This document shows positions 26,078 to 38,553 of a stretch of DNA of 64,000 nt, piece by piece (positions within the stretch are counted from its first letter, which is position 1; each line of letters opens with the position of its first letter). The translations under genes were made by a program, and so were the position numbers. Origin of the DNA: Rhodanobacteraceae bacterium. GTDB taxonomy: Bacteria; Pseudomonadota; Gammaproteobacteria; Xanthomonadales; Rhodanobacteraceae. The notes under the pieces are model-generated. The model worked only from the letters and a program-made list of their open reading frames with translations. It was not told the DNA's origin and searched no databases. The DNA is taken from NCBI GenBank assembly GCA_027019085.1, contig JALUXG010000008.1, positions 33,759 to 97,758 of the forward strand, read 5' to 3'.

Positions 26078-26140
26078 CCGTATCGCTCGCAAAAACCGGC
26101 TGGCGTTCGGACACAAAACATGCTGCAATGCATGCCTGAG

Positions 26141-26221
26141 AAGCGGGGGTGCCTGGCTGGAACCAGGCTGAGAATCACCCTTCGAACCTGATCCGGCTCG
26201 TACCGGCGTAGGGAGCTTCGA
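26141..26221 (+). promoter_or_regulatory. TPP (THI-box) riboswitch
   Basis: gcgggggtgcctggctggaaccaggctgagaatcacccttcgaacctgatccggctcgtaccggcgtagggagc: carries GGGGTGCC, GGCTGAGA, ACCC, GAACCTGATC and TACCGGCGTAGGGA. Confidence 0.95.
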
Positions 26222-26289
26222 CATGATCCGCCTGCCTGGCGGGTCAGGTCGCCGTCGCTTCGTGGCATCCACCAACCGACGTGCAGACC

Positions 26290-31317: not shown

Positions 31318-32784
31318 ATGTCCATGCTGCACCAGCTGTTCGCCCGCAAGACCTCGTTCCGCAACGACGACGATACGCACGGCCCGGGTCTGCGACGCAC
31401 GCTGGGGCCGTGGGGCATCACCGCGCTGGGCATCGGCGCGGTCATCGGCACCGGCATCTTCGTGGTCACTGGCACCGCCGCGGCCGAACACGCCGGCCCT
31501 GCGGTGCTGATTTCCTTCGTGCTGGCGGCCATCGTCAGCGGCTTCTCGGCGCTGTGCTATGCCGAATTCGCCACCCTGATCCCGATTTCCGGAAGTTCGT
31601 ATTCCTATGCCTATGCCACGCTCGGCGAACTGACGGCCTGGTTCATCGGCTGGAACATGGTGCTCGAATACGGCATCTCCGCCTCGGCGGTCGCCGCAAG
31701 CTGGACCGGCTATTTCGGTAGCCTGCTACGGGACGTGTTCGGCATTCACCTGCCCGTTGCACTGTCCAACGCGCCATTGGCGTTTACCGACGGCCACCTG
31801 GTGCATACCGGCGCGCTGTTCAACCTGCCCGCCGTGGCCATCGTGCTGGCCTTGACCTGGCTTTGCTACATAGGCATTCGCGAGTCTTCGGGCATGAACG
31901 CGCTGATGGTATTGCTCAAGGTCGGACTGATCGTGGTCATCATCGTCGCCGGTGCACGTTACGTGAATGTCGACAACTGGCATCCGTTCATTCCTGCGCA
32001 GCAAGGGCCGGACAAGTACGGCTGGTCCGGCATCTTCCGCGGTGCGGCCATGGTCTTCTTCGCCTACATCGGCTTCGAGGCCACATCGACTGCGGCACAG
32101 GAATGCAAGAATCCGCAACGCGACCTTCCCTTCGGCATCATGGTCTCGCTGTTCCTGTGCACGGTGCTGTACCTGGGCATGGCGGCGGTCATGACCGGAC
32201 TGGTACCTGCGGCCATGCTGGACACGGCCGACCCGGTCATCACCGCCATGCGCGGCCATCCGCAGCTTGACTGGCTGCGACCACTGGTCGAGATCGGCGC
32301 CCTGATCGGCCTGTCCTCGGTGATCCTGGTGATGATCATCGCGCAACCGCGCATCTTCATGATCATGGCCCGCGACGGCATGCTGCCCAAGGTATTCGCC
32401 CGGGTGCATCCGCGTCATCGCACGCCGCACATCAACACCCTGATCACCGGCTTCGGGATCGCGTTGCTGGCGGCAATCTTCCCGTTGGACCTGCTGGCCG
32501 ACCTGACCTCGATGGGCACCCTGATCGCATTCGCCGCAGTCTGCGCGGGCGTGCTGATCCTGCGCTACACCCAACCGGACCTGCCGCGCACCTTCCGCGT
32601 GCCGGCGGCATGGTTCACCTGCACGGCAGGCGTACTGAGCTGCAGCTTCCTGCTGTCGCAGATGAACTGGTTCAACTGGACCCTGATGGGTGTCTGGACG
32701 GTATTCGGGCTGGCCATCTATTTCCTCTACGGTTACCGCAACAGCCTGCTCAGGCAGCGGGCCCGGCCCGGCGGAAACATCTGA
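31318..32784 (+). CDS. APC-superfamily amino acid permease (tandem paralog)
   Basis: LGIGAVIGTGIFVVTGTAAAEHAGPAV, FFAYIGFEATSTAAQECKNPQRDLPFGI; close homology to the preceding gene. Confidence 0.92.
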   Translation: MSMLHQLFARKTSFRNDDDTHGPGLRRTLGPWGITALGIGAVIGTGIFVVTGTAAAEHAGPAVLISFVLAAIVSGFSALCYAEFATLIPISGSSYSYAYATLGELTAWFIGWNMVLEYGISASAVAASWTGYFGSLLRDVFGIHLPVALSNAPLAFTDGHLVHTGALFNLPAVAIVLALTWLCYIGIRESSGMNALMVLLKVGLIVVIIVAGARYVNVDNWHPFIPAQQGPDKYGWSGIFRGAAMVFFAYIGFEATSTAAQECKNPQRDLPFGIMVSLFLCTVLYLGMAAVMTGLVPAAMLDTADPVITAMRGHPQLDWLRPLVEIGALIGLSSVILVMIIAQPRIFMIMARDGMLPKVFARVHPRHRTPHINTLITGFGIALLAAIFPLDLLADLTSMGTLIAFAAVCAGVLILRYTQPDLPRTFRVPAAWFTCTAGVLSCSFLLSQMNWFNWTLMGVWTVFGLAIYFLYGYRNSLLRQRARPGGNI

Positions 32785-32785
32785 A

Positions 32786-32801
32786 CATACGCTCACGTAT
32801 G
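32786..32801 (+). terminator. Small hairpin immediately after the second APC permease
   Basis: catacg-ctca-cgtatg inverted repeat overlapping the region just after the stop; no U-tract. Confidence 0.3.
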
Positions 32802-32831
32802 CTCAAATTATCCTCGATATAACATTAGATA

Positions 32832-32859
32832 TTGCATATATTTTATTGTTTAATATAGG
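32832..32859 (+). promoter_or_regulatory. Promoter-like motif in AT-rich intergenic region
   Basis: TTGCAT - 16 nt - TATAGG inside a strongly AT-rich tract of an otherwise GC-rich window. Confidence 0.35.
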
Positions 32860-32970
32860 TTATTCTTTTTTTATTCCAGCCGGACTGCAAAACATCTGGA
32901 TGCCGACTGGGCGGGGGAGTATCATGCTTGGTCCGCGGGTTTTTCACTTGGCAGTGGGCCCCGGAATGCC

Positions 32971-33018
32971 GCCCGGGCGCACCGGATGGGTCAGCTCCTC
33001 AATCCGGTGTGCTCGGGC
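32971..33018 (+). ncRNA. Candidate structured RNA hairpin
   Basis: gcccgggcgcaccggat - 14 nt - atccggtgtgctcgggc: 17 consecutive pairs with two G-U wobbles valid only as + strand RNA. Confidence 0.35.
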
Positions 33019-33140
33019 AGCACCTCTCCTGCAGCACCCATTCCCGGCAACCCATGCCATCCCCGCACCCTGCCGCAAAAGCTTGCGCATGCGGGCGGAC
33101 ACGTGCACAGGCCCTGAAGGCAAGCTCCAGACATGACAAA

Positions 33141-33157
33141 GGCCGGACATGCCGGCC
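33141..33157 (-). terminator. Intrinsic terminator downstream of HiPIP gene
   Basis: Minus strand ggccggcatgtccggcc followed by TTTG. Confidence 0.55.
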
Positions 33158-33207
33158 TCCGTTCATGTGTATTTGCCGGGGTGCCGGGCTCTGCGCCCGG
33201 CGGATCC

Positions 33208-33543
33208 TCAGGCCTTGTTCTGATGCGATACGCACCATCCCTTGGCAGCCACATCCTTGCCCGGGAAGATCTTGCACGGCCCCCAGGCCTCACCGGCCTT
33301 GCCCTCGTAGAACAGGCAGTTGCTGCAATCAGCTCCGGGCTTGTACGCCGGATTCTTGGTCTTCGTGTGGTCCTCGACGTAACCCAGCGCCTTGGCCGTT
33401 GGGTCCGATGGGGACAGATGTGGCAAGCCACCTGCACGCGCCACACGCGGCAGGATGCCGGCTACTGCGGCAACCGCCGCCGTACCTGCGGCAAGTTTCA
33501 GGAAACTGCGCCGTGATTCGTTCATGGAACCTTTGCTGCTCAT
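33208..33543 (-). CDS. High-potential iron-sulfur protein (HiPIP) with Tat signal
   Basis: Tat motif SRRSFLKLAAGTAAVAAVAG; C-x2-C...C...C pattern (CSNCLFYEGKAGEAWGPCKIFPGKDVAAKGWC). Alternative start 33525. Confidence 0.92.
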   Translation of the reverse strand: MSSKGSMNESRRSFLKLAAGTAAVAAVAGILPRVARAGGLPHLSPSDPTAKALGYVEDHTKTKNPAYKPGADCSNCLFYEGKAGEAWGPCKIFPGKDVAAKGWCVSHQNKA

Positions 33544-33721: not shown

Positions 33722-34363
33722 ATGCATGCTGACGCATCCAATGCCGATGACCTCAAGTGCTGCGCGCGTGCCATAGCAGAAGCGGCCGCCGAATGTGCCG
33801 CGCTGGGCTGGACACCGGCCACCAGCAGCAACTTTTCGATGCGCATGGCCAACGGCAGGCATGTGGCCATCACTGTATCGGGCCGCGACAAGGGCCGACT
33901 CCGCGACGAGGACATCATGGTCGTCGATCTGGCGGGAAAGCCGGTCGACAGCGATCATCGCCCGTCGGCGGAAACCACACTGCACACCCAGATCTACCGT
34001 CGCATGACGGATGCACACGCCGTGCTGCATACCCACTCGCGCAACCAGAGCGTGGCCTCGCGGCTGTTCGCCGGTCAGGGCCTGTTGCGACTGCAGGGCT
34101 GGGAGCTGCAAAAAGCCATCGGCGGCCAGGACACGCACGAAGACGCACTGGACGTACCCGTCTTTCCCAACACCCAGCACATGCCCGACCTGGAAGCGCA
34201 CGTCGATGCCTGGCTGGATGCCGGCAAGCCCCTGCACGCCTACCTTATCGACGGCCACGGCTTGTACGTGTGGGGCCGTGACATGACGGAGGCGCGACGC
34301 CACCTCGAAGCCCTGGAATTCCTGCTTGGTTGCGAACTTGACCTGAGGAGACTCGCACCGTGA
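33722..34363 (+). CDS. mtnB: Methylthioribulose-1-phosphate dehydratase
   Basis: Class II aldolase fold: [25 protein letters not shown]; followed by mtnD, mtnC. Confidence 0.93.
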
Positions 34364-37911: not shown

Positions 37912-38541
37912 TCAGCCCGCGTGCCGCTCGCGCAGGCAGGCTTCCACATCGGACAGGCCCAGGTTGCGCGCACGCAGCAATACCAGCAGATGGTAGAACA
38001 GGTCCGCCGCCTCGCCGACCAGGGCACCGTCTTCTTCAGCAACCGCTGCCAGCGCGGTCTCCACACCCTCCTCGCCGACTTTCTGCGCGATGCGGCGCAC
38101 GCCGGCATCGAACAGGCGGGTGGTGTAGCTGTCTTCGGGCAGTTCGGCGTGACGCCGTGCAACCAGTGCGTCGAGTTGGCCGAGGAAGGCCAGCGCATGA
38201 CTGGAGTCGTCACCGAAACAACTGTCCGTGCCCAGGTGGCAAGTCGGCCCGTTGGGCGCGGCCTGCACCAGCAATGCATCGTTGTCGCAGTCGGCATGGA
38301 TGGACTTCAGTTCCAGGGTGTTGCCGGAAGTCTCGCCCTTGGTCCACAGGCGCTGCTTGCTGCGGCTGTAGAACGTGACCTTGCCGCTGCTCAACGTGGC
38401 CTGGAGGGACTCGCGATTCATGTAGCCGAGCATCAGCACGCGGCCGTCGCGCCAGTGCTGCACGATGGCGCTGATCAGGCCGTCGCCCTTGCTCCAGTCC
38501 AGGCGTTCGGGGTCGAAAGCGGAAGTTGCGTGTTCTGACAT
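37912..38541 (-). CDS. hisI: Phosphoribosyl-AMP cyclohydrolase/phosphoribosyl-ATP pyrophosphatase HisIE
   Basis: [64 protein letters not shown]. Confidence 0.96.
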
Positions 38542-38553
38542 GTGCTGGACCCT

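Follow-up and report, generated by a model that had tools for sequence, protein, structure and literature searches.

The window, a stretch of 64,000 nucleotides of DNA from a member of the Rhodanobacteraceae (source assembly of 2.8 Mb in 54 contigs), contains a gap between two convergent genes that is occupied by a conserved element with the features of a small RNA (sRNA) gene. The gap is bounded by the stop codon of an APC permease (32782-32784) and by the end of a minus-strand HiPIP gene at 33208, which is where the first-pass annotation had placed this convergent pair. The permease belongs to a tandem of two paralogous APC-type amino acid permeases (about 29.8-32.8 kb) that is also found in relatives, and beyond the HiPIP gene lie the methionine-salvage genes mtnB and mtnD. 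A synteny comparison demonstrated that the order permease > RNA < HiPIP, mtnB, mtnD is conserved alongside the RNA in relatives; in the g14 genome G017, the RNA is present and HiPIP is absent at that place. A small palindrome (CATACG-CTCA-CGTATG, 32786-32801) that follows the permease stop codon immediately, and that occurs in varied forms in several relatives, is perhaps the 3′ end of the permease mRNA. On the minus strand, the hairpin GGCCGGCATGTCCGGCC at 33139-33160, followed by TTT, is likely to be the terminator of the HiPIP gene. Elsewhere in the window, a TPP riboswitch is located at 26135-26231 on the + strand (RF00059, 70.2 bits). The features of the locus are collected in Table 1.

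Table 1. Features of the sRNA locus and its neighbourhood (positions in the window)
Feature	Position	Strand	Basis or remark
AT-rich upstream tract	32800..32878	+	AT-rich in most relatives; recurrent YAAnTnnTTGATT / TTTAACGA-like motif
Weak -35-like hexamer TGGATG, 17-nt spacer	32897..32902	+	TTGGCA/TTGGCC here in basal genera
-10 hexamer TATCAT (conserved TATSAT)	32920..32925	+	TATGAT/TATCAT/TATGCT in 54/57 homologues
Putative small RNA gene, about 97 nt	32931..33027	+	ends predicted from the -10 and the terminator
5′ hairpin UCCG.GGG...CACUUGGCAGUGGGCCCCGG, sequence nearly invariant	32932..32965	+	alignment, structure
Invariant segment 1, UUGGCAGUGG	32948..32957	+	exact complement of CCACUGCCAA in metJ mRNA
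Terminator hairpin, including the 17-bp stem 32971-32987 / 33002-33018 of the first-pass annotation	32967..33022	+	fold, inverted repeat, covariation
Terminator loop, segment 2, UCAGCUCCUCA	32991..33001	+	exact complement of UGAGGAGCUGA in metJ mRNA
Short pyrimidine/U tract 3′ of the stem	33023..33028	+	CCTCTC, weak, in the window; many relatives have CTTTT/TTTTT
HiPIP gene, convergent neighbour	33208..33531	-	PF01355
mtnB-like methionine-salvage gene, beyond HiPIP	33722..34360	+	Aldolase_II domain; mtnD (ARD) next

Comparison of the gap by blastn with 61 genomes, 37 of which were Rhodanobacteraceae, identified a block of ~110 nt (32914-33025) in 28 of these 37, the source genome included, and the sole match in other families was a stretch of 34 nt that fell outside the conserved block. 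A covariance model of the + strand (32918-33028) found matches in 180 of 234 Rhodanobacteraceae genomes, distributed over 21 of 26 genera. The element is present in essentially one copy per genome, and in exactly one in the source assembly; where a second match was listed, it was this hairpin read on the opposite strand. When the model was run on order- and class-level relatives, several hundred genomes in all, it returned two weak matches and no credible one; both (G437 and G655) lacked the invariant motifs and were judged to be chance. Read from 5′ to 3′, the oriented alignment consists of AT-rich DNA, a GAGTATSATC block, GTCCGnGGGTTnATCACTTGGCAGTGGGCCCCGG, a GC-rich hairpin with the loop tCAGCTCCTC and a short T-tract. 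This plan is kept in the distant genera g24 and g25, where the stems are quite different and the tails are clear (CTTTT/CGTTTAT). Because the indels are not in multiples of three, the element is non-coding. None of the 4227 models of Rfam 15 matched it above the gathering score, and a relaxed search gave sub-threshold matches only, mostly microRNA-precursor noise. A phage or plasmid origin was rejected, as no matches were found. In one genome of the same genus, G003 (loci L034/L065), the copy of the RNA looks degraded and the region upstream of it is much shortened and misses the AT-rich tract. It is near certain that 32918-33028 (+) holds an sRNA gene conserved across the Rhodanobacteraceae.

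The first-pass annotation had pointed to 17 consecutive pairs formed by gcccgggcgcaccggat (32971-32987) and atccggtgtgctcgggc (33002-33018) around 14 intervening nucleotides, two of them being G-U in + strand RNA. The pairs are present, and an inverted repeat search returned the same hairpin as a 21-nt arm pair. Folding of the gap surpassed that of dinucleotide shuffles on the + strand (z -4.2, 0 of 100 as good) and equally on the minus strand (z -4.3), so that folding energy alone cannot choose between them. The choice comes from the homologues, in which G-U outnumbers A-C by 130 cells to 10 over 53 sequences, as fits the + strand only and as the proposal of a strand-specific fold had anticipated. 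An RNA transcribed from the minus strand was rejected on this count and on the placement of the -10 and the T-tract. The compensatory changes for which the first-pass annotation had looked to homologues do exist: double changes were found in 16 of 29 pairs and 97.5% of the cells were paired, values that 0 of 500 shuffles matched. When the partners were slid along the alignment as a control, the paired cells fell to 29-44%. The alignment of the 53 homologues was fitted to the covariance model, which somewhat favours structure, and 13 pairs with double changes were counted in an unfitted MAFFT alignment. The covariation is located in the terminator stem; the support for the 5′ hairpin comes mostly from conservation, because its sequence is almost invariant. 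The 17-bp hairpin is thus real, but its role had to be revised, since it is the 3′ terminator stem, carries a conserved pairing loop and is preceded by a second, 5′ hairpin (32932-32965). The 3′ end has the make-up of an intrinsic terminator, with a GC-rich covarying stem and short T-tracts in most relatives, the U-tract being weak in this genome. Where an Hfq-dependent sRNA would have a U-rich 3′ tail and A/U-rich Hfq sites, short U-tracts are seen in the relatives and CCTCTC in the window.

Transcription of the element would depend on a promoter other than the one proposed at first. The first-pass annotation had combined TTGCAT (32832-32837) and TATAGG (32854-32859), separated by 16 nt, into a promoter with a start near 32865-32870. 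The letters are there, but the hexamers are not conserved even within the genus and lie about 65 nt upstream of the conserved -10; the relatives are mostly AT-rich at that place and do not keep them. A promoter scan missed this pair and reported a single site elsewhere (0.7 expected from shuffles), which is no more than chance. Given the conserved -10 at 32920-32925, we infer instead that the RNA starts near 32931, about 6 nt 3′ of this hexamer. Upstream of it, the match to TTGACA peaks at spacers of 17-19 (mean 1.8-2.2 vs about 0.7-1.3 at other spacings), and divergent genera carry TTGGCA-17-TATGCT. The AT-rich tract had been delimited correctly to within a few nucleotides (about 32800-32875, now about 32800-32878). 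About 75-80 nt before the -10, the recurrent, IHF-like motif of the AT-rich tract was observed in about half of 28 relatives, and it might be a site for IHF or an activator. MetJ boxes upstream of the sRNA were rejected, as the best tandem match reached only 10/16. Taken together, the family-wide conservation in single copy and in synteny, the compensatory changes, the conserved -10 and the terminator strongly support the original idea of a small structured RNA on the + strand.

A candidate target emerged from a search of the source genome and of G002, from the same genus, for the loop complement GAGGAGCT shortly before an ATG. Such sites are at background in the genome (10 vs 9 in the control), and one of them is identical in both genomes and has, in its upstream sequence, CCACTGCCAA, which is complementary to invariant segment 1. 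The gene is metJ (PF01340, E 1.7e-37), and the site lies within its reading frame, where the MetJ domain ends (..FTGQPLPTDEELRR), and immediately before a long Lys/Ala-rich tail that starts with an in-frame ATG. This position inside the metJ frame ruled out an earlier reading, in which the site belonged to the 5′ leader of a free-standing H1-like gene. Two sites of the metJ mRNA, 5 nt apart, are complemented exactly, over 10 and 11 nt, by the segments UUGGCAGUGG and UCAGCUCCUC(A); the predicted partners are UCAGCUCCUC/GAGGAGCUGA and UUGGCAGUGG/CCACUGCCAA. A third-order Markov model of the DNA puts the chance expectation for a co-located pair of exact 10-mers at about 0.003 per genome; as E-E-L is commonly encoded by GAG GAG CTG, this estimate was relaxed tenfold to about 0.03. 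A comparison of the sRNA gap with the metJ stretch gave no further match of at least 8 nt. Matched changes were found on both sides: in g14, the changed loop UUAGCUCCUC meets GAGGAGCUAA in metJ, and in G003, ..GUGGC in the sRNA meets GCCAC.. in metJ, which adds a C-G pair. In g3, g23 and g25, the loop pairing is down to 8 bp. Both sites run in the same order on the sRNA and on the metJ mRNA, so that pairing in full at both sites at once would give a topologically crossed arrangement and require a complex of two kissing contacts. On the strength of this complementarity, metJ is probably a target of the sRNA.

The metJ side is itself unusual. The string ACT GGG CAA CCA CTG CCA ACT GAY GAG GAG CTG AGA CGA is nearly fixed in 56 genomes, with synonymous variation near zero, where most other degenerate codons of metJ show 1-2 bits. 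The sequences behind this result came mostly from a search with a pattern that itself included part of the stretch; ACT, GGG, CAA and AGA lie outside the pattern, however, and the metJ sequences collected through Pfam agree. The pattern was found in 203 of 232 Rhodanobacteraceae genomes, compared with about a dozen for reversed-pattern controls. Judging from these codons, the stretch is under constraint at the RNA or DNA level. As an observation in its own right, a run of about 39 nt in metJ, encoding TGQPLPTDEELRR (loci L141, L146, L170-L246), is almost without synonymous variation across the Rhodanobacteraceae, genera that lack the sRNA included. In G010, the RNA is absent and different, synonymous codons are used throughout the stretch. 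In g5, g9, g16 and g26, no sRNA was detected and the stretch is largely kept, the complementary sites themselves carrying several changes, e.g. CAACTACCAA or GAGGAGTTA. In these four, a pattern search that allowed for divergence and called for the predicted compensations detected no sRNA, and none was present in the syntenic gaps examined in genera without it. Retention of the stretch in these cases indicates that this RNA is not the only cause of the constraint or that an unrecognised RNA exists there. The Rhodanobacteraceae MetJ has a long in-frame, Lys/Ala-rich C-terminal tail resembling histone H1, and the conserved internal ATG is located 11-12 nt 3′ of GAGGAG, making it possible that initiation there yields a free H1-like protein. 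In G000, metJ is found at C27 near 38518-38552 (-), locus L146; other loci are L141 and L200-L231.

The best explanation of these data, and one that we hold to be moderately probable, is that an independent gene, with its own -10 and a GC-rich terminator end, produces a trans-acting sRNA of ~97 nt that pairs at two sites with the metJ mRNA. The first contact, with the GAGGAG stretch of metJ, would most likely be made by the terminator loop, whose sequence UCAGCUCCUC is similar to an anti-Shine-Dalgarno, and the 5′-hairpin segment UUGGCAGUGG would add a second contact on the same mRNA. Such pairing in the cell would cover GAGGAG, about 11-12 nt before an in-frame ATG that could by itself start the tail. 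As for the outcome of regulation, binding may repress metJ or destabilise its mRNA, or it may block the possible internal start of the tail. Repression of metJ would, in turn, tune the methionine regulon, and the methionine-salvage genes next to the RNA lend support to a link with methionine. In a more specific version, which we consider rather unlikely, metJ and the histone-H1-like part form a fused gene with a ribosome-binding site inside its coding sequence, and the two kissing contacts of the family-specific sRNA act on that site. If true, a single mRNA would give rise to the methionine repressor and to a free nucleoid-type protein, in a ratio set by the sRNA.

Other explanations account for part of the evidence. 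The strongest of them, possible if rather less probable than pairing with metJ, accepts a genuine trans-acting sRNA and places its main targets among other mRNAs with GAGGAG-type ribosome-binding sites, its loop serving as a general anti-Shine-Dalgarno as in sRNAs with C-rich loops and the metJ match being coincidental or minor. The loop CUCCUC would be able to pair with many Shine-Dalgarno sequences, GAG GAG CTG is a common codon string and some genera conserve the metJ stretch without the RNA. However, segment 1, which is not Shine-Dalgarno-like, exactly matches the same 30-nt stretch of mRNA, with a joint chance of about 0.003-0.03 per genome. The matched changes in g14 and G003, the methionine-salvage genes adjoining the RNA and a count of GAGGAGCT..ATG sites at background (10 vs 9) also argue for metJ.

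The near invariance of the 5′ hairpin, whose sequence is conserved beyond structural need, could alternatively be that of a protein site in an RNA of the 6S type or one that sequesters CsrA/RsmA. This appears improbable, since the 6S RNA is encoded elsewhere in the genome, repeated GGA loops are absent, there is no Rfam match and the invariant segments coincide with the metJ complements. The convergent setting and the GC-rich hairpin with its short U-tract would also suit a mere transcription terminator, either bidirectional or belonging to the permease 3′ UTR. We give this very little credence: the HiPIP gene has its own hairpin and T-run (33139-33160), and conservation here extends to the -10 and its constant spacing and to the invariant sequences of the 5′ hairpin and of the loop, none of which terminators keep. 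Finally, hairpins are common in GC-rich genomes and a palindrome arisen by chance or a dispersed repeat of the REP type might be suspected, an artefact that is refuted, to near certainty, by the single syntenic copy per genome and the strong covariation.

The analysis yields a well-delimited conserved RNA family with a covariance model, a precise predicted target, metJ, and a mapped site on its mRNA, and it also points to the RNA-level constrained stretch and the histone-like tail in MetJ. In the open-access literature searched, no paper was found on small RNAs of Rhodanobacteraceae, nor on a MetJ with a histone-H1-like tail or an RNA-level constrained metJ stretch. Among known systems, sX13 and other sRNAs with C-rich loops show that a C/U-rich loop can pair with ribosome-binding regions. 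sX13 is an sRNA of Xanthomonas, an order-level relative (PMC3771888); the present RNA, in contrast, was confined to Rhodanobacteraceae in the genomes searched and combines a single CUCCUC loop with the UUGGCAGUGG segment. The 6S RNA (RF00013) is likewise a structured bacterial RNA of the same genome, but it occupies a separate locus (C32:46562-46749) and the present RNA has no sequence or structure match to it. The closest parallel in design is the two-loop kissing interaction of OxyS with fhlA in E. coli. There as here, the terminator loop and a 5′ hairpin would each pair with its own site on a single mRNA, and one of these sites coincides with a ribosome-binding sequence; the two RNAs differ in that they have no sequence relation and in that the predicted target of the present RNA lies inside the metJ coding sequence, with the order of the sites crossed. 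The element is best called a new family within a known kind, the two-site base-pairing sRNAs.
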